Shown one piece after another: positions 14,511 to 25,460 of a stretch of DNA of 64,000 nt. Within the stretch, counting starts at the first letter, position 1. The number at the start of each line of letters is the position of its first letter. Origin of the DNA: an uncultured Flavobacteriaceae bacterium (GTDB lineage: Bacteria > Bacteroidota > Bacteroidia > Flavobacteriales > Flavobacteriaceae); contig CANMFO010000001.1 in the NCBI GenBank assembly GCA_947497245.1, positions 62,001 through 126,000 of the forward strand. The letters run 5' to 3'. Below the pieces are notes generated by a model, which saw only the letters and a program-made list of their open reading frames with translations, had not been told where the DNA came from and made no database searches. The position numbers and the translations under genes were made by a program.

Positions 14511-15365
14511 ATGCAATTAGGAAATGTGGGACAACAGTTGTCGGGAATCTTGGAAAATACTGTTGATGCGGAGGTTGGAAATTGGTTGGCCGAGAAAATT
14601 GACAAGATCATCACCGATGGTTCAACAAGGGACATGTACCTGACCTATAGTCTCATTGCTTCCAAAATTCCGCCCAAAAATATCCCAAGTGCGCACCTGG
14701 AAGGCGATTTGGGAGCGTATCTGCAACTGCAAGGGGCAAATGTCCAACAGATGGCAAGAATATATTTGTTGGTCAGGGTATTGGAGGCCGACAGGGAGTC
14801 ATTTGCGCCCAAGGTGGCCAATATCATCCAAGTAGCGGATACCGGGGAGCTGGAGACCTTTTTAAAGTTCCTGGTACTGTTGCCCCGTCCCGAAGATTAC
14901 AAAACCCCGGCCGTCGATGCGCTGCGGACCAATATAGCAACGGTTTTCAATGCCATAGCGCTGAACAACCCCTATCCCGCGCGGTTTTTTGATGAGCAGC
15001 AGTGGAACCAGATGTACCTCAAGACCGCGTTTATGCAGGGCGATCTGAGCGCCATATACCAGATCGACCAAAGGGCGAACGGGGAACTGGCCCGGATCAT
15101 ATCGGACTATGCCCATGAACGATGGGCGGCCTCCAGGGATATCGACCCCTATTTTTGGCGCCCCGTATCCCAATTTTTGAATACGGCCCTTTTGGAAGAT
15201 ATGGAACGTTTGCTGGAAAGCAGTGACCCCTTGGAGAACAGGGCGGGCGCACTTTGCTGCTATTTTTCCGATGCCCCCGGGGCCAAAAAACTACTGGAAG
15301 GCCGTTCCGAATGGATAGAACAGATTGAAAACAAAACACTAAGCTGGAAAACCCTTAAAGATTGA
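14511..15365 (+). CDS. eboA: EboA domain protein, first gene of ebo operon
   Basis: 284 residues, soluble and mostly helical, without signal or catalytic motif. It is recognised by the EboA family pattern (NPYPARFFDEQQWNQMYLKTAFM and the later HERWAASRDIDPYFWRPV) and by its place before five genes in canonical ebo order. In cyanobacteria eboABC are needed to move the scytonemin precursor to the periplasm; the biochemical role of EboA is unknown. It ends 2 nt before eboB. Confidence 0.92.
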   Translation: MQLGNVGQQLSGILENTVDAEVGNWLAEKIDKIITDGSTRDMYLTYSLIASKIPPKNIPSAHLEGDLGAYLQLQGANVQQMARIYLLVRVLEADRESFAPKVANIIQVADTGELETFLKFLVLLPRPEDYKTPAVDALRTNIATVFNAIALNNPYPARFFDEQQWNQMYLKTAFMQGDLSAIYQIDQRANGELARIISDYAHERWAASRDIDPYFWRPVSQFLNTALLEDMERLLESSDPLENRAGALCCYFSDAPGAKKLLEGRSEWIEQIENKTLSWKTLKD

Positions 15366-15367
15366 TT

Positions 15368-16276
15368 ATGGAAGAAAAAATGATGTTTATTGATCCGCAT
15401 GTACACATGTCCTCACGAACGACCGATGACTACGAGGCCATGGCAGATGCCGGGGTGGTAGCGCTCATTGAACCATCATTTTGGCTGGGGCAGGCACGTA
15501 CCCAAGTGGGATCGTTCCAGGACTATTACAGCAGCCTGGTGGGATGGGAGCCCTTTAGGGCCAGCCAGTTCGGTATACAGCACTACTGCACCATCGGCCT
15601 CAATTCCAAGGAGGCGAACAACGAGGCCCTGGCCGAACAGGTGATCGAATTATTGCCCCTGTACGTGCACAAGGAAAACGTGGTGGCGATAGGGGAGATA
15701 GGCTACGACGACCAGACCCCGGCCGAGGACAAATATTTCAGGATCCAGCTGGAAATGGCCAAGGAACTCGGGATGGTCGTACAGGTACATACCCCGCACC
15801 GCGATAAAAAGGCGGGGACCATCCGAAGTATGGAGGTATGCCTGGAGCACGGCCTCGACCCGGCAATGGTGGTCATAGACCACAACAACGAGGAAACGGT
15901 GAAAGAGGTACTGGATAGGGGGTTCCTGGCCGCATTCACCATCTACCCCAAGACCAAAATGGGCAACGAGCGCATGGTGGCGGTGGTCAAAAAATACGGC
16001 AGTACCAACATCATCGTGGACAGCTCCGCAGATTGGGGCGTCAGCGATCCGCTGGCAGTTCCAAAGACGGCGAACCTTATGTTGAAGAGGGGGGTGGCCA
16101 GGGAAGATGTTGTAAAGACCTGCTACCAGAACGCGCTGGACGCTTTTGGAAAGAACGGGAAGATGAAGGAGTCCGATTGGCTGGACCCCGAGGGCATCAA
16201 CCAGACCAAACTGTACAACGATAACAGCGTATTGCGCGGTCAGGAACCCAAAGTGGATTCGGATAAAATCGTTTAG
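15368..16276 (+). CDS. eboB: EboB, TatD-family metal-dependent hydrolase
   Basis: 302 residues from the ATG at 15368; a TTG two codons earlier would overlap eboA. The amidohydrolase fold shows H11-V-H13 at strand 1, GEIGYDDQT near 115, VQVHTPHRDK near 140 and VIDHNNEE near 170, which supply the metal ligands of a TatD-type TIM barrel. The natural substrate in the ebo pathway is not known. Its stop codon is immediately followed by the eboC ATG. Confidence 0.92.
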   Translation: MEEKMMFIDPHVHMSSRTTDDYEAMADAGVVALIEPSFWLGQARTQVGSFQDYYSSLVGWEPFRASQFGIQHYCTIGLNSKEANNEALAEQVIELLPLYVHKENVVAIGEIGYDDQTPAEDKYFRIQLEMAKELGMVVQVHTPHRDKKAGTIRSMEVCLEHGLDPAMVVIDHNNEETVKEVLDRGFLAAFTIYPKTKMGNERMVAVVKKYGSTNIIVDSSADWGVSDPLAVPKTANLMLKRGVAREDVVKTCYQNALDAFGKNGKMKESDWLDPEGINQTKLYNDNSVLRGQEPKVDSDKIV

Positions 16277-17167
16277 ATGAACGCCGTTCTAAAAGGATAT
16301 CTACGATTGGCCCGCCCGGCCAATCTACCGACCGCCGCCGCCGATATTTTGGCCGGTGTCGCGATCGCAGGGCCGCTTGCCGCTGGCGGGGCGTCCCTCC
16401 CCATAAGTTCCAATATTGCCCTTCTGGTTTTCGCCTCCGTGTTCCTATATGCCGGGGGAGTGGTGCTCAACGATGTGTTCGATTTTGGAATCGACAAAGA
16501 GGAACGGCCCGAAAGGCCCATCCCCAGCGGATTGGTACCCCTGAGGTCGGCCGCGGTCTACGGAGCACTATTATTGGCCATTGGTGTTTTTCTTGCCTTT
16601 TATGCCCAGAGGTTCAGCGGCTATGTTGCCCTGGCCTTGACAGTTTCCATTGTGCTGTACGACGCCTTCTCGAAAAAGTACGGTTTCCTGGGCCCCTTGA
16701 ACATGGGAATCTGCAGGGGACTGAACCTGATCTTGGGAATGTCCGTTTTGGGAGAACCGACCTATTGGTGGTATGCGGCTGTTCCGGTGGTGTACATTTT
16801 TGCCATCACAATGATCAGTAGGGGGGAAGTGCATGGAAACAACAAGAATCATATTATTTGGGCGGGTATGTTGTACATTCTCGTTATTTTAGCGGTGGTG
16901 GCCATTGTTGTGTCCGAAACGGGCAATGTATTTCAAGTTACCCCATTTTTGGTGCTTTTTGCTATTTTGATCTTCAAGCCATTGATCAATGCATATCGAA
17001 TGAATTCACCCAAAACCATAAAGAAAGCGGTAATTGCCGGTGTACTTTCTCTGATCGTCCTGGACGCATCGCTCGCGGTCGGCTTTTCCGTCTGGTGGTA
17101 CGGCCTTTTATTGCTGGCATTATTGCCTTTATCCATACTTTTGTCCAAAATTTTTGCCGTTACTTAA
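16277..17167 (+). CDS. eboC: EboC, UbiA-like membrane prenyltransferase
   Basis: 296 residues with about eight to nine membrane segments. The UbiA motif NDxxDxxxD is intact as N65-D66-x-x-D69-x-x-x-D73, followed by the RPIPSG stretch, which predicts magnesium-diphosphate binding. UbiA enzymes attach a prenyl chain to an aromatic or sugar acceptor in the membrane. In the ebo cluster the donor and acceptor are unknown. There is no gap after eboB, which implies translational coupling. Confidence 0.93.
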   Translation: MNAVLKGYLRLARPANLPTAAADILAGVAIAGPLAAGGASLPISSNIALLVFASVFLYAGGVVLNDVFDFGIDKEERPERPIPSGLVPLRSAAVYGALLLAIGVFLAFYAQRFSGYVALALTVSIVLYDAFSKKYGFLGPLNMGICRGLNLILGMSVLGEPTYWWYAAVPVVYIFAITMISRGEVHGNNKNHIIWAGMLYILVILAVVAIVVSETGNVFQVTPFLVLFAILIFKPLINAYRMNSPKTIKKAVIAGVLSLIVLDASLAVGFSVWWYGLLLLALLPLSILLSKIFAVT

Positions 17168-17176
17168 ACAAGGCCC

Positions 17177-18346
17177 ATGCAGTTGAAACCTATAAAACAA
17201 TCCTTTGCAGTCGCGTACGAGTACAATTTGCACTTTACGCAGGGACTGTTCGATTCCCAGAACACCTTGTTCAGGGATATCTTTGACAGTTATAAGAAGA
17301 ACGAAAGGGTAAAAGTGTTTTTTGTGATCGACCAAGGGGTCGCCGATCATCATCCCGATCTGAAGCAAGGGATAAAAACCTATTGCGAACGGTATTCGGA
17401 TAATTTGGACCATACCGGAAGCCTGGTCGTCCCGGGCGGCGAACAGTGCAAAAACGACTATGGCAACGTTACCGCGGTCCTGTCCGCGATCAATACCAAT
17501 GCCATATGCAGGCACTCGTTTGTGGTGGTCATCGGTGGAGGTGCCATGGTAGATATGGTCGGCTATGCCGCGGCCATCGCACACCGGGGGGTGAAATTGA
17601 TCCGTGTTCCGACCACCGTGCTCTCCCAGAACGATTCTGCCGTAGGGGTGAAGAACAGCATCAACAACTTCGGGAAGAAGAACTTTGTGGGCACCTTTGC
17701 ACCGCCCTATGCGATCATCAACGATACCGATTTCCTGCATACCCTGGAACAGCGTGACTGGATCGCCGGTGTTGCGGAGGCCGTGAAGGTGGCCCTGATC
17801 AAAGATGAAAAGTTCTTTGCCTATCTTGAGGAAAACGCCCAAAAGCTGAAGGATAGGGATATGGCACCGATGCAGTACCTGATACACCGTTGTGCCGAAA
17901 TGCACATGCACCATATTGCCCAGGGCGGCGACCCCTTTGAAAGTGGATCTTCCCGGCCGTTGGACTTCGGACATTGGGCCGCCCATAAGCTCGAACAGAT
18001 GACGGACTACAAACTGCGGCACGGGGAGGCGGTGGCCAAGGGCATTGCCCTGGACATGACCTATGCACAAATGACGGGGCTGATTTCCGCTGATGCCCTC
18101 AAACGTATCCTGACCGTTATGGAGCGCATGGGCTTCGACCTGCACATCCCCGTTGGATCGGATAAGGACATCACAGACCTCTTGGTGGGCATCGAAGAGT
18201 TCCGCGAGCATCTGGGCGGGGAACTTTGTATCACCCTGATATCCGGGATCGGAAAAAAACACGATGTGAATACGATCGATCTAGATCGTATGCAGCAGGC
18301 GGTCCAAGTGCTGAACGATAGCTGTAAAATAAAAATAGACCACTAA
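17177..18346 (+). CDS. eboD: EboD, 3-dehydroquinate synthase-like cyclase
   Basis: 389 residues of the DHQ synthase superfamily. NAD-binding VIGGGAMVDMVGYAAA (117-132), then RVPTTVLSQNDSAVGVKN, and the metal ligands in RPLDFGHWAAHKLE and LRHGEAVAKG are all present. The sequence fits the EboD branch, whose relatives include sugar-phosphate cyclases, and context assigns it. A housekeeping AroB role is unlikely because no other shikimate gene is near. It ends flush against the eboE start. Confidence 0.92.
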   Translation: MQLKPIKQSFAVAYEYNLHFTQGLFDSQNTLFRDIFDSYKKNERVKVFFVIDQGVADHHPDLKQGIKTYCERYSDNLDHTGSLVVPGGEQCKNDYGNVTAVLSAINTNAICRHSFVVVIGGGAMVDMVGYAAAIAHRGVKLIRVPTTVLSQNDSAVGVKNSINNFGKKNFVGTFAPPYAIINDTDFLHTLEQRDWIAGVAEAVKVALIKDEKFFAYLEENAQKLKDRDMAPMQYLIHRCAEMHMHHIAQGGDPFESGSSRPLDFGHWAAHKLEQMTDYKLRHGEAVAKGIALDMTYAQMTGLISADALKRILTVMERMGFDLHIPVGSDKDITDLLVGIEEFREHLGGELCITLISGIGKKHDVNTIDLDRMQQAVQVLNDSCKIKIDH

Positions 18347-19540
18347 ATGCGCATAAATACCCACCATCAGCTCACCTATTGCACCAATATCCATCCGGGC
18401 TCCGATTGGAAAAACACCTTTGATAGCCTTAAGGCATACGTCCCCAACATTAAAGACCAGGTAGCTCCCGACGTCCCCTTCGGGCTTGGGCTGCGCTTGT
18501 CGAACAAAGCAAGCGAGGAATTGGCCCAGAGCGATCGGCTGTCCGAGTTTAAACAGTGGCTGCAACAAGAAGGTCTTTACGTGTTCACCATGAACGGTTT
18601 TCCCTATGGAAACTTTCACGATGAACGGGTCAAGGACGATGTGCACACCCCGGATTGGACCACCCGGGAACGGGTCGATTATACCAAGCGCCTTTTTGGC
18701 CAACTGGCCGAGTTGCTTCCCGAGGGCATGTCGGGGGGTATTTCCACCTCGCCCATAAGCTACAAGCATTGGTTCGCTACCGAAGCCCTCCGGGAAAAGG
18801 CCTTTGAAACGGGTGCCCTCCATCTTTCGGAAATTGTACTGCAATTGTACGACCTGGAGCGTACCACCGGCAAATACCTGCATTTGGATCTGGAGCCCGA
18901 ACCCGACGGATTTCTGGAGAACAGTGATGAGGTGCTGTTGTTCTTTGAAAAATATTTGGTGCCCATGGCCACCCCGGCCGTAAAGGCCCATACGGGAAAG
19001 GAGGGAACGGAGGCCGTCGAACTGATCAAAAGGTACATCACGGTCTGTTACGATATCTGCCACTTTTCCCTGGCCTACGAAGAGCCCGAGGATACCTTTC
19101 AAAAGTTCCGCCAAGCCGGAATCGCCATTGGCAAGATCCAGGTAAGCGCCGCTTTGAAGATCCTGTTCAACGAACAGGGCAAAGATGCCATTTGGGAATC
19201 GCTTTCGAACTTTGACGAGCCCACCTACCTGCACCAGGTGACCGAAAAATTGGACGGAAAGGTGAAAACCTACAACGACCTACCCGTTGTATTGGCCGAA
19301 CGCAACGATTTTACCGAACTGAGGGCCCATTTCCATGTACCCATTTTCCTGGAGCGTTTCGATATGCTGTTTTCCACCCAGGACCATATCATCAAAGTGT
19401 TGGACCATATCAAAAAGCACCCGGTCTCGGAACATTTGGAGATCGAGACCTATACCTGGGACGTGCTTCCGAAAGAATTGAAACGGGAACTGACCGAATC
19501 GATCGTACGGGAGATCAACTGGTTAAAAGACAGAATGTGA
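18347..19540 (+). CDS. eboE: EboE, TIM-barrel metabolite traffic protein
   Basis: 397 residues of the xylose-isomerase-like TIM-barrel group. Acidic and His residues placed as metal ligands occur in LDLEPEPDG, YDICHFSLAYEEP and the later IEIETYTWDVLP region (here LEIETYTWDVLP). NCBI families call this EboE, a metabolite traffic protein; no reaction is proven. The ATG follows the eboD TAA with no spacer. Confidence 0.92.
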   Translation: MRINTHHQLTYCTNIHPGSDWKNTFDSLKAYVPNIKDQVAPDVPFGLGLRLSNKASEELAQSDRLSEFKQWLQQEGLYVFTMNGFPYGNFHDERVKDDVHTPDWTTRERVDYTKRLFGQLAELLPEGMSGGISTSPISYKHWFATEALREKAFETGALHLSEIVLQLYDLERTTGKYLHLDLEPEPDGFLENSDEVLLFFEKYLVPMATPAVKAHTGKEGTEAVELIKRYITVCYDICHFSLAYEEPEDTFQKFRQAGIAIGKIQVSAALKILFNEQGKDAIWESLSNFDEPTYLHQVTEKLDGKVKTYNDLPVVLAERNDFTELRAHFHVPIFLERFDMLFSTQDHIIKVLDHIKKHPVSEHLEIETYTWDVLPKELKRELTESIVREINWLKDRM

Positions 19541-19544
19541 CCCC

Positions 19545-20927
19545 ATGCAAAAGACCGTTGTCATCAATGTGGTCGGATTGACCAAACGGCTCATCGGGGC
19601 GCACACCCCCTTTATCCGATCGTTTTTGGAGCAGGGCCGATCCGCCCTGATCTCTCCCGTGCTCCCCGCAGTGACCTGTTCGGCACAATCTACCTATCTC
19701 ACGGGCGAGTACCCCTCGGAGCATGGAATCGTGGGGAACGGATGGTATTTCAAGGACGAATGCGAGGTGAAGTTCTGGAGGCAGTCCAACAAGCTCGTCC
19801 AAAGTGAAAAGATCTGGGAGAAGCTCAAACGGCACGACCCGGAGTTTAGCTGCGCCAACCTTTTTTGGTGGTACAATATGTACGCCACCACCGATTATAG
19901 CGTTACCCCGCGGCCCAATTACCTGGCCGATGGGCGAAAGATCCCCGACATCTATTCCCATCCCGCGGGTTTGCGCGATACGTTGCAGGAGGCGCTGGGA
20001 ACCTTCCCGCTCTTCCATTTCTGGGGCCCGAAGACCTCCATAAAGTCCAGTCAATGGATCGCCGATGCCACTTTGAAGACCGATACAATGCACGATCCAA
20101 CGCTCACCTTGGTGTACCTGCCGCATTTGGACTACAATCTGCAGCGACATGGTCTTGATTTTGAACACATCGCAAAAGATTTGAACGAGATCGACGGGGT
20201 GGTCGGGCAATTGCTGGAGCACTATCGGGAACAGGACGCCAACATCATCCTGCTCTCCGAATATGGGATTACCGATGTGCACCGTCCCATCCACCTGAAC
20301 CGTATCCTACGGAAAGAAGGGTACATCAGTATTCGGACGGAACGCGGATTGGAGCTGCTGGATGCCGGGGCGAGCAAGGCCTTTGCGGTGGCCGACCACC
20401 AGATCGCACATATCTATCTGAACGACAAATCCCTTGGATCCAAAGTGAAGGAACTCTTGGAAAAGGTGGAGGGGGTGGAAAAGGTGCTGTCCGGGGATGA
20501 CCTGAAAGAAGCCAAACTGCAGCACGACCGCTGTGGGGACCTCGTGGTCGTGGCGGACAAGGATTCCTGGTTTACGTACTATTTTTGGCTGGATGACAAA
20601 AAGGCCCCGGACTTTGCCCGAATGGTCGATATCCACAAAAAACCGGGGTACGACCCCGTGGAAATGCGCACCGATCCCAAGGACAAGCTGGTCATGGCGA
20701 AGGTCATCGGCAAATTGCTCAAAAAGAAAATGGGCTTTAGGACGGTATTGGATATCATTCCGTTGGATGCTACACTGATCAAGGGCTCCCACGGCAGAAT
20801 TCCCGAAGATACCGACGATTACCCCATTTTCATCACCAACAATACCACATCGGTCCTGGAAAAGAAGATAGCCCCGACCCAGGTGTTCGGGCTTTTGGAA
20901 GACCATGTCCTGTCGCCACGGCCCTAG
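19545..20927 (+). CDS. eboF: EboF, alkaline phosphatase/NPP-type hydrolase
   Basis: 460 residues of the alkaline phosphatase superfamily (nucleotide pyrophosphatase branch). T44 in PAVTCSAQSTYLTG sits where the nucleophilic Thr is found in NPP enzymes; EYPSEHGIVGNGWY follows, and later LLSEYGITDVH and GSHGRIPED supply metal ligands. The usual first Asp ligand near the N-terminus is not obvious (VINVVGLTKR), so activity should not be assumed. It is the last ebo gene, starting 4 nt after eboE, and it converges on the PIG-L gene. Confidence 0.9.
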   Translation: MQKTVVINVVGLTKRLIGAHTPFIRSFLEQGRSALISPVLPAVTCSAQSTYLTGEYPSEHGIVGNGWYFKDECEVKFWRQSNKLVQSEKIWEKLKRHDPEFSCANLFWWYNMYATTDYSVTPRPNYLADGRKIPDIYSHPAGLRDTLQEALGTFPLFHFWGPKTSIKSSQWIADATLKTDTMHDPTLTLVYLPHLDYNLQRHGLDFEHIAKDLNEIDGVVGQLLEHYREQDANIILLSEYGITDVHRPIHLNRILRKEGYISIRTERGLELLDAGASKAFAVADHQIAHIYLNDKSLGSKVKELLEKVEGVEKVLSGDDLKEAKLQHDRCGDLVVVADKDSWFTYYFWLDDKKAPDFARMVDIHKKPGYDPVEMRTDPKDKLVMAKVIGKLLKKKMGFRTVLDIIPLDATLIKGSHGRIPEDTDDYPIFITNNTTSVLEKKIAPTQVFGLLEDHVLSPRP

Positions 20928-20966: not shown

Positions 20967-21812
20967 CTATTCCCCAAAAACGGAACTTTTCGCTTGTGCT
21001 GGGCCGACAAATTCGCGCAGGTAAATGGCACCGCCCGTTTTTTTCCGCGACTCGGTGATCCACGAGATCATTTCCGGTGAGACCTGGCTTTTGTGGCACT
21101 TGAGGGAGATCATCGCTTTTTCGGCGTCCGCTTTCGAGTACGGTACCCTGGTCTTGAGGTAGGTCGAGTCGATTCCGGCCAATTTTTTCCGTTCCGGGTC
21201 CTCGATCAGCTGGGCCGGGGTGCCCACATAGTACAAGGCCATAGGGTGGTCCCAGACCTTGCCCAGGAACACTTGGGTGACCGAGGCACCGACCAACCGA
21301 TGGTCCATATGGGTACTTCCGCCATCGGGGCCCCAGCTGATGAGTACATCGGGCTTTTTGTCCGTAACGATCTGGTGCAGTTCGTTGATAAGGGCCTTGG
21401 CGTGCGGCACGTGGCCGTCATAGCCCTCGCCCGCCCGGAGCTGGTCGTGGTAGTCCAAATGGATCAGTTCGGCCCCCAGCTGTTCCGCGGCGCACTTCAT
21501 TTCCTCCTTGCGGATGGCGACCAGGCCCTCGCCGGCCTCCAGCCCGGAGAAATCATTGGTCCCGTACCGCCCGTCCGTGCAGATCACCAGATATACCTTG
21601 GTCCCTTCCCGGGCATATCTGGCCAGCATCGGGCCAACGGTCATTTCATCATCCGGATGGGCAAATATGGCCATGAGCACCTTGCCCTCATCGGCCTGCT
21701 GCGCGTTCAGGGTGCAAGTACCCAAGATCAGGGACGCTAGGCAACAAAATTTTACCATTGGGGCGAAAGGGAAGGACTGACGGGAAAACGTGGGCTTTTT
21801 TGGATGTCTCAT
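20967..21812 (-). CDS. Secreted PIG-L / LmbE-family deacetylase
   Basis: 281 residues. Zinc ligands are clear: FAHPDDEM near residue 51 and HMDHR near 165. Members remove acetyl groups from N-acetylglucosamine-linked substrates or related amides. A hydrophobic stretch (about 19-38, ending LNAQ) is a signal peptide; the in-frame ATG at 21758 would give a tidier signal and is a possible true start. The gene converges on eboF across 39 nt. It shares a 609-bp upstream region, which includes the 22-bp repeats, with the large cytochrome gene. Confidence 0.9.
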   Translation of the reverse strand: MRHPKKPTFSRQSFPFAPMVKFCCLASLILGTCTLNAQQADEGKVLMAIFAHPDDEMTVGPMLARYAREGTKVYLVICTDGRYGTNDFSGLEAGEGLVAIRKEEMKCAAEQLGAELIHLDYHDQLRAGEGYDGHVPHAKALINELHQIVTDKKPDVLISWGPDGGSTHMDHRLVGASVTQVFLGKVWDHPMALYYVGTPAQLIEDPERKKLAGIDSTYLKTRVPYSKADAEKAMISLKCHKSQVSPEMISWITESRKKTGGAIYLREFVGPAQAKSSVFGE

Positions 21813-22421
21813 GATGGATGGATTTAATGGACCGGACCGAAAAGGGGTCCGATCATTAAAAATAAGGCTTTTGGAACGTTCCTTTTACCGTTGGTCCCGT
21901 AATTTAAGATCAAGGACGGTTTTGGCCTTTATGCACCGTCCCGAAACACCAATGTTTTAGGGGGATGGCAATTATGCCCTGGGGTTTTTGAAATTATGCC
22001 CTGGGGTTTTTGAAATTATGCCCTAGGGGTTTTATGATTATGCCTTGGGGTTTGTATCAGGATGCCCCGGGGGTTTTGTCAGGATGCCCTAGGGATTGTA
22101 TCAGGATGCCCTGGGGATTGTATCAGGATGCCCTGGGGATTTTATCAGAATGCCCTAGGGATTTGATTTGTCTCCCTGGATATAGGGTATGCCAAATGGT
22201 GCGCAACAAAATGAATATCCACCCTGAAGAAAGGAAAGACAATGGGATGTTCCGAAAAAGGTATTAAGGCGGCCAATGGGATCCATGGCGTGGAATTCCG
22301 ATTCAATTCCCTATTTTTAGGGAAACGAATGTGCATGGAACGGAAAGGCAGTACCGCTTTGCCCGTGAAGGCCCAATACCAAGAACCGATGCTACCGACC
22401 GCTATAGACCAAAAGGAACCG
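21813..22421. promoter_or_regulatory. 609-bp divergent intergenic region
   Basis: It lies between the leftward PIG-L gene and the rightward cytochrome/propeller gene (start taken as 22422). Its middle is filled by the 22-bp tandem repeat array. An open frame (ATG 22034 to stop 22267) crosses the repeats but has no recognised domain. No RNA gene is evident. Both promoters are expected here, outside or at the edges of the array. Confidence 0.5.
21974..22171. repeat. Array of nine 22-bp direct tandem repeats
   Basis: Units begin at 21974, 21996, 22018, 22040, 22062, 22084, 22106, 22128 and 22150, exactly 22 bp apart with no indel. All begin ATGCC; the shared core is CCCTGGGG or CCCTAGGG, and the tail drifts from TTTTTGAAATT (units 1-2) to TTGTATCAGG (units 4, 6, 7). 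A degenerate unit in register lies just before, at 21952-21973 (ATG...TAGGGGG...AATT). Units 3, 6 and 9 carry CCCTAGGG while the others mostly have CCCTGGGG, pointing to a 66-bp higher-order unit. There are no spacers, so this is not CRISPR. Confidence 0.95.
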
Positions 22422-25400
22422 ATGTTAAAAGGGATGGTCCCGCTAAAATATGCTTTATGGATGGCCCTATTGGGGGCGGTATTGGTCCTGGGAAGTTGCC
22501 GGCCTACCCCGATCGAGGAATCGTGGGCGTACGAAATGGACATGGGCGACGAGATGCCCCACGGGACCATGAAACTGAAAAGGGAGGGAGGGTCCGATCA
22601 AATAACCCTGGTTTCGCTCGATTGGGGCACCTTTGAACTCGAGAATGTGGCCATGGATGCCAGTGCGCTATCCGGCGATCTGGAGCTTTTTGGGGACAGT
22701 GCCCGCCTTGAAGGTACCTTTCGCGATACGGTTTTTTCAGGAACAATGAAGGTCGATGATGAGGTTTTCCCCTTTGTGGCCCGGAGGCAAACGCAGGAAC
22801 CCTTTGAGATAGACCGTTCCCATATCGCCTATGTCCTTTCGGAAGCCGACCTGGCCGAATCCGAAAGCGATATCGACCATTCCGGGATCATTGCCGCTAC
22901 CGACCGGGAAGGGTATCGACGGGGCGAACGGATCTATAGCAACAATTGCATCAACTGCCACGGGAACGAAGAGGTTGAGGGTTCCATACCCTTGTCCACC
23001 AAGTTTTGGGAACAGCCCCTAAAGGCCGGTAGCGATGCGTTCTCCATGTACCAGACCATCAGTCGGGGCACCGGGGCCATGCCGCCCCAGCCCTTGCTCA
23101 CCCCCCGGGAAAAATACGATGTCATCTCCTATATCCGGCACAGGTACATCCGGGAAAATGCAAGCGAGACCTATGTTCCCAACACGCCCGGGTATTTGGC
23201 AGGTCTGCCCAAGGGCACCTCCCGTGGACCGGAGACCAAACCCTATCAGCCCTGGGCCGATATGGACTATGGCAATTTCCTTATCAATACCTATGAACTG
23301 GTCGATGAAGAGACCGGACCGGAACGCTACCATTCCCCTGGGCCGGCCCCATACCCCGATGAGGACTACTCGGAAAATAATTTTGCCTACAAGGGGATCG
23401 CCGTTCGCCTGGACAAGGGGGAGGGCGGTATCGCCAAAGGGAGGGCTTGGATGCTGTTCGACCACGACCTGATGCGGGTGGCCGGTGGCTGGACGGGCGA
23501 GGGCTTTATCGATTGGGACGGTATTCTGTTGAACGACAAGCACGAGACCTACCCCAGGACCGTGGGAAAACTCCATTTCGAGACCCCGGTGGGCCCCGGG
23601 TGGGCCAATCCGGAAACGGGCTCTTTTAAGGATCCTAGGTTCAAGGCCAGGGATGGCCGGGCCTTTGGACCCCTCCCCAAGAACTGGGCCGACTATAAAG
23701 GGCTGTACCACCATGGAGAAAAAATCATCATTTCCTATAGCGTGGGGAAGGCCAAGATCTTGGAAAAACTGGGCATGGAGGAGCACGACGGGGCAACGGT
23801 CTTCACAAGGACCCTGAACATCGGCCCCTCGAACGCACTTTTAAAAATGAGGGTGGCCCCTGAGGGGAACAAGGTCGCCCTTTCCGGTTCCGGGGCGGTC
23901 CTGGTCGAAAAAGATGGCCATATCCTGCTCCAAGTGCAACAGGGAACGGCAGCGAAATTGAAGCTCTTCATCGCGGACGCATCGGTAGCGGATCTTTCAG
24001 GGTTTGCCAAAACTTCCGCTGCCCCAGAATCCCTGGCGCAATATACTTCCGAAGCTGGGCCGGCCCACTATCCGGAAAAAATCAAGACCACGGTGACCAC
24101 GGGCACCGAGGAGGGTCTTTTTGCCGTAGATCAATTGACCCCGCCCTTTGACAATCCCTGGGCCTGTAGGATGAAGCTGAGCGGCATCGACTTTATGGAG
24201 GACACCGACAAAGCGGTGGCCTGCGCTACCGATGGTGACATCTGGCTGATCTCCGGCCTGACCAAGGGTGGTGGGGAACTGAGCTGGCAACGGATCGGTT
24301 CGGGCCTTTTCCAGCCCTTGGGCATCAAGGTCCTGGACGACAAGGTATACGTAATATGCCGGGATCAGTTGGTGCTGCTCCGAGACTTTGACGGGGACAA
24401 CGAAACGGACTTTTACGAAAGCTTCAACCACGACCACCAGGTGACCGATCATTTCCACGAGTTCGCCATGGGCCTTCAGGCCGATGGAGCGGGAAACCTC
24501 TATTATGCCAAAAGTGGACGGCATGCCAGGGAGGCCCTGATCCCCCAGCACGGCACCTTGTTGAAGGTAAGCAAGGACGGGTCCAGGACCGATATCATCG
24601 CCAAGGGGTTCCGGGCCGCCAACGGGGTGTGCATCAATACTGACGGCAGTTTCCTGGTCACCGACCAGCAGGGTTTCTGGAACCCGATGAACCGGATCAA
24701 TTGGGTGGATGGAAAGGGCAAGTTTTACGGCAATATGTGGGGATACGATCCACCACGGGACAGTACCCGGGTGGCCATGGAACAGCCCATGGTCTGGGTC
24801 GACATGCAGTTCGACCGATCGCCCTCCGAACTTCTGTGGGTCGACAGCAAAAAGTGGGGCCCTTTGAATGGAAGCCTTTTGAGCTTCTCCTACGGTTACG
24901 GAAAGATACAGTTGGTGCCCCACGAAAAGATCAATAACCAGGTACAGGGCGGGGTCATCGACCTGCCCGGGGTGAAGTTTTTGACCGGGGTGATGCGGGG
25001 CAGGTTCAATTCCGGGGATGGCCAGCTGTACGCCTGCGGCATGTCGGCCTGGGGCACCAACCAGATGCTTCGGGGCGGCGGACTGTACCGTGTCCGGTAC
25101 ACTGGAAAGCCCATGACCCTACCCATCGACCTGAAGACCACCGTTTCGGCGGTCCATTTGGGCTTTGCCCTGCCGCTGGATGCCCAGGGGGCGGAAACTG
25201 TGGAAAACTATGAAATAAAGACCTGGAACCTGGTACGGAGCAGCAAATACGGTTCCGACCGCTATGATGAGCAGACCCTATCGATCTCCAAAGCGGAAAT
25301 ACGGCCCGATGGCAAAACAGTAAAGCTCCATGTAAAGGATATCAAGCCCGTGGACGTAATGACGATCACCTACGACCTCAAGGATACCGCAAGCAATCCG

Positions 25401-25460
25401 GTACAGGGCACACTGCAGAACACCATCCACCAGCTGGGTCCCGAAAGCGGGGCACTTTGA
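22422..25460 (+). CDS. Lipoprotein with cytochrome c, DUF6797-like and beta-propeller dehydrogenase regions
   Basis: I choose the ATG at 22422 (1012 residues), with AAAAGGA just upstream and a lipobox LGSC (Cys26), over the in-frame ATG at 22242, which adds 60 residues of no clear character. Order: small beta domain (30-125), cytochrome c with C176-I-N-C179-H180 and a Met in GTGAMPPQP, a DUF6797-like region (about 255-560), and a six-bladed-propeller domain of the PQQ/sorbosone dehydrogenase type (about 570-920) with DFDGDNETDFYESF and AANGVCINTDGSFLVTD. It likely oxidises a sugar or sugar derivative outside the inner membrane and passes electrons through its haem. Confidence 0.82.
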   Translation: MLKGMVPLKYALWMALLGAVLVLGSCRPTPIEESWAYEMDMGDEMPHGTMKLKREGGSDQITLVSLDWGTFELENVAMDASALSGDLELFGDSARLEGTFRDTVFSGTMKVDDEVFPFVARRQTQEPFEIDRSHIAYVLSEADLAESESDIDHSGIIAATDREGYRRGERIYSNNCINCHGNEEVEGSIPLSTKFWEQPLKAGSDAFSMYQTISRGTGAMPPQPLLTPREKYDVISYIRHRYIRENASETYVPNTPGYLAGLPKGTSRGPETKPYQPWADMDYGNFLINTYELVDEETGPERYHSPGPAPYPDEDYSENNFAYKGIAVRLDKGEGGIAKGRAWMLFDHDLMRVAGGWTGEGFIDWDGILLNDKHETYPRTVGKLHFETPVGPGWANPETGSFKDPRFKARDGRAFGPLPKNWADYKGLYHHGEKIIISYSVGKAKILEKLGMEEHDGATVFTRTLNIGPSNALLKMRVAPEGNKVALSGSGAVLVEKDGHILLQVQQGTAAKLKLFIADASVADLSGFAKTSAAPESLAQYTSEAGPAHYPEKIKTTVTTGTEEGLFAVDQLTPPFDNPWACRMKLSGIDFMEDTDKAVACATDGDIWLISGLTKGGGELSWQRIGSGLFQPLGIKVLDDKVYVICRDQLVLLRDFDGDNETDFYESFNHDHQVTDHFHEFAMGLQADGAGNLYYAKSGRHAREALIPQHGTLLKVSKDGSRTDIIAKGFRAANGVCINTDGSFLVTDQQGFWNPMNRINWVDGKGKFYGNMWGYDPPRDSTRVAMEQPMVWVDMQFDRSPSELLWVDSKKWGPLNGSLLSFSYGYGKIQLVPHEKINNQVQGGVIDLPGVKFLTGVMRGRFNSGDGQLYACGMSAWGTNQMLRGGGLYRVRYTGKPMTLPIDLKTTVSAVHLGFALPLDAQGAETVENYEIKTWNLVRSSKYGSDRYDEQTLSISKAEIRPDGKTVKLHVKDIKPVDVMTITYDLKDTASNPVQGTLQNTIHQLGPESGAL

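Follow-up and report, generated by a model that had tools for sequence, protein, structure and literature searches.

HU proteins are the textbook example of non-specific DNA benders, with a preference for bent and cruciform DNA. Other DNA-binding proteins come with sites of their own: RAYT transposase genes adjoin their own type of palindromic REP sequence, further copies of which are dispersed through the genome, and ParB–parS systems and plasmid iterons combine a gene with adjacent repeated sites—dyads or direct repeats—laid out in phased arrays.

Among described repeats, the one that bears most directly on the present locus is BrickBuilt of Porphyromonas gingivalis (Klein et al. 2015, PMC4596501). 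BrickBuilt consists of 23-bp tandem units without spacers, in 19 intergenic copies that vary in the number of their units; it is called a MITE of P. gingivalis, occurs also in P. gulae, and has a leader, a tail and terminal inverted repeats. One copy, BrickBuilt_14, adjoins a gene for an HU-family DNA-binding protein (PF00216) in Table 1 of the paper; 'HU family' and 'histone' are absent from its text, and the parts at hand propose no protein partner for the repeat. On the protein side, two domains that will concern us, PF14848 and PF14734, are named for TDE_2259 of Treponema denticola in PMC12724145, the one paper in the literature searched that was found to name them; 'tandem repeat' does not occur in it. 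The TAACTGA repeats of Beggiatoaceae and some Bacteroidetes (PMC4679880) were considered and set aside; they are heptamer direct repeats, unlike the 22-bp arrays described below. Within the literature searched we found no report of a pairing between HU-type genes and arrays, and any claim of novelty is limited to that literature.

The window, by which we mean the whole stretch of 64,000 nucleotides that was analysed, comes from an uncultured Flavobacteriaceae bacterium, and carries such an array, A1. Its parts and its neighbours are these:

20967..21812, minus strand: PIG-L family deacetylase gene (PF02585), left neighbour of the array
21948..21969, plus strand: unit 0 of A1, degenerate, in register, core TTTTAGGGGG
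21970..22167, plus strand: array A1, nine 22-bp units, TRF consensus ATGCCCTGGGGATTTTATCAGG, near-palindromic core CCC-T-(A/G)-GGG
22168..22189, plus strand: right edge of A1, degenerate and off phase, CTCCCTGG (by eye)
22242..25460, plus strand: cytochrome c / DUF6797 gene (PF20601, PF13442), right neighbour of the array

The first-pass annotation had described a nine-unit 22-bp tandem array in perfect phase, preceded in register by a degenerate tenth unit, with near-palindromic cores and lying between a divergent PIG-L gene and a large cytochrome gene, and all of this stands. The units follow one another at 22 bp throughout, with zero indels; direct reading is matched by TRF (period 22, 8.7 copies, 84% matches, 0% indels), and bases 22 positions apart are identical at 149 of 176 places over the nine units, against a mean of 48 and a maximum of 72 in 2000 composition shuffles. 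The core is CCCTGGGG or CCCTAGGG, the latter in units 3, 6 and 9. A higher-order unit of 66 bp, also claimed earlier, had to be given up: identity within A1 is 0.84 at lag 22 but 0.79 at both lag 44 and lag 66, a three-unit pattern has p = 0.38 when the order of the units is permuted, and no peak at lag 66 is found in A2, A3 or A4, the sister arrays of A1. By eye, the right edge of A1 carries a degenerate, off-phase CCCTGG, and a similar TCCCTGG ends A2.

BLAST with the A1 array matches four places in its own genome (G000, 5.25 Mb), and a three-core pattern with up to 3 mismatches finds four arrays there, A1 to A4, two of which share one 1.7-Mb contig. Each is intergenic and has some 9–10 units; the linkers differ from array to array, the cores and the phase are kept. 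A1 lies between divergent genes. A2 lies between tandem genes, one P-II-like (a name read from sequence), the other encoding 192 aa. Convergent genes flank the other two: A3 lies between a DUF922 gene and a BshC gene, A4 between a gene for a protein with an HU and an Ig-like domain (HU-Ig) and a putative ribosome recycling factor gene (the latter name again read from sequence). The first core of A4 is found 11 bp past the stop codon of the HU-Ig gene. A1 is a remote copy; the home copy is A4, directly behind the HU-Ig gene. A looser two-core pattern adds a single match in G000, at C2:70105; over 60 genomes it finds that place and one each in G006, G009 and G021, all with linkers unlike those of the arrays, and the places in G000 and G006 look alike and are perhaps coding.

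Set beside the known systems, these arrays are familiar in part. They share with BrickBuilt the tandem units without spacers (22 bp in A1–A4, 23 bp in other genomes) and the several dispersed, intergenic copies, here four of the A type; they differ from it in that a leader and tail with terminal inverted repeats of about 12 bp are missing around A1–A4 (by eye), and in that the home copy follows an HU-Ig gene. With RAYT–REP pairs they share a gene, a palindromic repeat type belonging to it and dispersed copies, but the partner here has an HU fold and is not a transposase, and the repeats form phased tandem arrays in place of single or paired REPs; no IS200/IS605-like transposase occurs among the Pfam-scanned neighbours or the recurrent neighbour clusters. 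The likeness to ParB–parS and to iterons lies in a gene beside repeated sites in phased arrays, the difference in a partner gene with HU and DUF4469 domains only, free of ParB or Rep domains, and in several dispersed copies. A plasmid iteron origin was rejected on the four copies in this one genome, two of them on a single contig, and on Pfam-scanned neighbours that are not Rep, and a CRISPR array on head-to-tail units without unique spacers and Pfam-scanned neighbours that are not Cas.

The HU-Ig gene before A4 encodes 233 aa, and contains PF14848 (HU-DNA_bdg; 79.9 bits, cut-off 30) and PF14734 (DUF4469, Ig-like; 53.7 bits, cut-off 22.6). The predicted model of the protein (mean pLDDT 89.6, pTM 0.50) combines an HU/IHF-like domain with an Ig-like one; at that pTM, their relative placing is uncertain. 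Its best match in the PDB is 4fmr (E 2e-17), the putative DNA-binding protein BVU_2165 of Bacteroides vulgatus, a solved relative that is matched by sequence as well as by model; HU/IHF chains (6n2l, 1ihf) are matched more weakly, at E 0.004–0.007 with probability 1.00. PF14848 is patchy in its distribution, occurring in 12 of 395 Bacteroidota genomes at E <= 1e-12, with four genes in G000 and none in nine congeners. Two of the other HU-Ig genes in G000 (L076, L078) are followed by 22-bp arrays of quite different sequence, and the fourth paralog (L079 1477–2178) has no periodic array beside the gene. A viral origin was rejected on null results in viral_contigs, where three HU-Ig protein queries found zero relatives and the exact two-unit pattern 0 matches; a defence system was rejected too, PADLOC having no match for two HU-Ig proteins.

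HU-Ig genes in Bacteroidota, and one on a Treponema plasmid, are usually followed just after the stop codon by a phased array with a period of 22–24 bp, whose sequence varies with the gene. For 40 PF14848 genes—36 from 16 genomes, and four retrieved from plasmid and phage collections with protein queries (one on a Treponema saccharophilum plasmid, one on a Parabacteroides distasonis plasmid and two on unverified human faecal 'Bacteriophage sp.' contigs)—the best repeat period between 12 and 40 bp was scored from 20 bp before the stop to 330 bp past it. The best period is 22 (13 genes), 23 (17) or 24 bp (1) in 31 of the 40, in each case above all 60 shuffles, which preserve base composition only; with up to seven genes per genome (seven from G641) the 40 are non-independent, and the count overstates their independence. 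A Pfam scan of 30 of these genes found PF14848 and DUF4469 together in 30. Nine genes are without such an array in the tested stretch (L144, L150, L151, L163, L079, L167, L164, L080 and L141), the last of which has a 23-bp array some 490 bp downstream, beyond that stretch. Upstream of the same genes a period of 22–24 bp comes out best in 3 of 39, with scores of 28–29 (unshuffled) that are close to the shuffled downstream mean. Among 101 control gene ends, seven pass the shuffles, two with a period of 22, both of these in loci that had been fetched as 22-bp pattern matches. Three short proteins barely above the cut-off (L084, L085, L104) are outside the test, as are two entries that lacked a locus; for one of the latter, L172, the locus was obtained later and has a 23-bp array 24 bp past its stop. 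The association is weaker at loci of short or weak HU matches, where 22 bp is the top period in five of 22, one tied (unshuffled).

The association of gene and array is strong, and arrays of very different sequence keep the same 22/23-bp phase. The proposal that A1 offers phased sites to a DNA-binding protein is supported by this indirectly: the array family is tied to an HU-Ig gene, and the phase is kept across sequences.

Remote copies are not peculiar to this genome. With seven home arrays from four genomes joined as a single query, remote copies were found in all four: in six further places in G000, in seven in G151, in two in G108 and in 17 in G174, where they are spread around a single 4.4-Mb contig. 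One of the places in G000 (C2:493481) is weak, with no clear array; counting A1–A3, the remote arrays of this genome come to eight clear ones and a doubtful ninth. Simple ORF calling places remote arrays in intergenic DNA; where they overlap an ORF, it is a short and probably spurious one, or the overlap is limited to a few terminal bases of a gene. Composite arrays, in which two unit types abut in one phase, were seen by eye in G108 (L205, L206) and G174 (L173, L181, L184). In the remote/home pair of G174 at L179 2950–3271 and L186 2915–3231, array and downstream flank together are 91% identical, with a hairpin and then T residues; this shared flank is a clue to the origin of copies. At L198 2990–3142 in G151, an array 83% identical to the G000 home array type has no HU-Ig gene adjoining, which suggests exchange between genera, or loss of the gene.

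A pair of CCCTAGGG cores (up to 1 mismatch) is absent from 396 of 397 Flavobacteriaceae genomes, the sole exception being G000. A scan of genome_contigs with TGCCCTRGGG-N12-TGCCCTRGGG returned 12 stretches; six come from four Flavobacteriaceae genomes (two titled Flavobacterium), and the other six (Bacillota, Verrucomicrobiaceae, Firmicutes, Cesiribacter, Proteobacteria, Coriobacteriales) were judged by eye to look like chance pairs or other repeats and were discarded. The four Flavobacteriaceae genomes contain 9, 8, 5 and 14 matches to the pattern on one strand with up to 2 mismatches, and 0 to the reversed-pattern control; in most of the arrays inspected there, the row of CCCTAGGG dyads is extended, without change of the 22-bp phase, by a CTGTACAG dyad. 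Each of the four has an array with the same core immediately upstream of a short HU-HIG gene, identified by Pfam in three and by NCBIfam HU_rel in two. The same dyad array is found upstream of tyrosine recombinase genes (L042, L044, L073, L039) in Flavobacteriaceae genomes, and some of these loci then run into small ORFs that resemble a cassette array.

As to what is recognized in the arrays, 13 of 31 home-array consensuses contain a dyad at p < 0.05, and 18 are without a significant one. The units of G174 are the most instructive. They number 144, 101 of them distinct; 84 that begin with AG were used, and all column pairs at least 3 apart were searched. The top pairs, 9–23 (A-T, T-A, G-C), 13–19 (G-C, A-T) and 11–21 (C-G, G-C), share one common dyad axis, and the Watson–Crick fraction is 0.72 for pairs 9–23, 10–22 and 11–21, against 0.09–0.34 for slid pairs—values that are not probabilities, since the units are mutually related. 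Because these pairs change by compensation, with some unit types breaking them (the L180 type breaks 9–23, 10–22 and 11–21, the L170/L171/L185 type 11–21), self-complementarity is largely kept while the letters change, as would suit a dimer or a protein that reads structure. Two paralogs in G174, L081 and L102, have different arrays in spite of identical residues 1–120, which means that the unit sequence is not chosen by the HU half on its own and weakens the idea that the HU domain reads strictly paralog-specific sites. The codons of these two genes differ by 2 synonymous changes in residues 1–120 and by 16 synonymous and 19 non-synonymous changes in the remainder, a pattern that probably reflects gene conversion.

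Our best reading is that the arrays are phased landing strips to which HU-Ig proteins would bind, perhaps bridging loci; we think it rather probable that HU-Ig proteins act on such arrays. HU-Ig dimers would occupy one dyad per 22–23 bp, the HU fold gripping a bent or self-complementary dyad, and would line up next to one another as a nucleoprotein filament; the Ig domain might link neighbouring dimers, or bridge the home array to remote ones, and the resulting filaments or bridges might organise or mark the chromosome. That HU-Ig bridges loci or marks the chromosome is a guess. Bolder, and to our minds possible but somewhat doubtful, is the idea that HU-Ig proteins and self-complementary 22/23-bp arrays make up an undescribed class of DNA marking, in which each protein polymerises on its home and remote arrays, bending and joining chosen loci, the phase being set by the filament while unit sequences drift by compensation.

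The landing-strip reading draws on the home, remote and composite arrays, the gene survey and its controls, the dyads, the predicted fold and the arrays upstream of HU-HIG genes, all described above. Two further observations favour it: HU-DNA_bdg, with its four genes in G000, is missing from the nine congeners, and so is the array pattern; and BrickBuilt_14 of P. gingivalis adjoins a PF00216 (HU) gene. Several count against it. Nine of the 40 genes, L079 included, are array-less in the tested stretch; 18 of the 31 consensuses are without a significant dyad, and some G174 types break the pairs; identical HU halves go with different arrays; and the array in G151 that is 83% identical to the G000 home array adjoins no such gene. 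If the reading is right, part of the HU superfamily has defined chromosomal addresses—a wide HU-Ig family, mostly with a phased array, and with remote copies in the genomes searched—and HU-Ig becomes a candidate partner for the BrickBuilt repeat class, described as a MITE. A single purified protein and a single array would then be enough to put the function of the arrays to a direct test.

The arrays might instead be BrickBuilt-like minisatellites or MITEs, mobile or copied but without any HU-Ig-binding function, the home arrays being chance insertions behind genes. Their intergenic, dispersed placing and variable length would agree with this, as would the classification of BrickBuilt (PMC4596501) as a MITE that has a leader, a tail and terminal inverted repeats; moreover, in G174 a remote and a home array have about 175 bp of flank in common, a terminator-like hairpin included. 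Chance insertion does not predict, however, that arrays of different sequence and the same phase should follow 31 of 40 genes. By eye, furthermore, the flanks of A1–A4 have no common leader, tail or inverted ends, and no transposase-like member was seen among example sequences of the protein clusters found in at least three of the compared loci. We consider this explanation unlikely.

A little less likely still is an element that works at the level of RNA. Home arrays would then be rows of hairpins in the 3' untranslated region, regulating the HU-Ig mRNA or serving the HU domain as an RNA ligand, and remote copies would act likewise on other transcripts. Home arrays do closely follow the stop codon, and arrays in cis may be transcribed; the dyad changes are compensatory; and the A1 strand folds better than 200 of 200 shuffles (z -5.2), although any array of palindromes would do so. 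Against this, palindromic cores such as CCCTAGGG or GAAAGCATGCTTTC leave no room for a loop, so that a single unit cannot fold into a hairpin, and a phase kept strictly at 22/23 bp suits helical DNA. Some remote arrays (A1; L177) have divergent genes on either side, and the array of the four Flavobacteriaceae genomes precedes the HU gene, on its upstream side. A known RNA family for the A1 region was rejected, Rfam having zero matches at gathering score in window 21700–22500.

A third possibility, an operator array through which a local regulator would control the PIG-L and cytochrome genes, we hold to be improbable. In its favour, A1 lies between divergent genes. The PIG-L gene starts about 135 bp from unit 0, and the true start of the cytochrome gene is probably at about 22404–22440, ahead of a lipoprotein-like signal. 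The placing of Flavobacteriaceae arrays upstream of HU-HIG and tyrosine recombinase genes also speaks for it. The sister arrays lend no support to the view that A1 regulates the genes that flank it: A2 lies between tandem genes, and A3 and A4 between convergent ones. The cytochrome gene is matched in one of the nine congeners, G005, in a different gene neighbourhood from that of the window locus, and the tandem array is absent from there; a conserved operator of the cytochrome gene was rejected on this ground. The PIG-L and cytochrome c / DUF6797 genes, neighbours by position, are candidate members of the array system at most.

That A1 is a neutral product of replication slippage, for which the absence of its pattern from all nine congeners could be cited, is already disfavoured, and we give it hardly any credence: sister arrays occur at three further loci with diverged linkers and the same core and phase, and arrays are tied to HU-Ig genes. 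The first-pass annotation had looked to related genomes on this point, taking absence from all close relatives as the mark of slippage. The three-core pattern is indeed absent from the nine congeners (two of which are 81–86% complete and one 87%), and related arrays were found outside the genus. The rule would mislead here, because the HU-DNA_bdg family is also missing from the same nine, and because those related arrays exist.

Two further observations concern neighbouring genes. Putative RadC-like genes, so named from their sequence, are found close to an array or an HU-Ig gene at four loci (L172, L178, L193, L207), which belong to three genomes. In the window itself, positions 14511–20927 are occupied by a run of genes that we take to resemble an ebo-type cluster (prenyltransferase, dehydroquinate-synthase-like, TIM-barrel and phosphatase).
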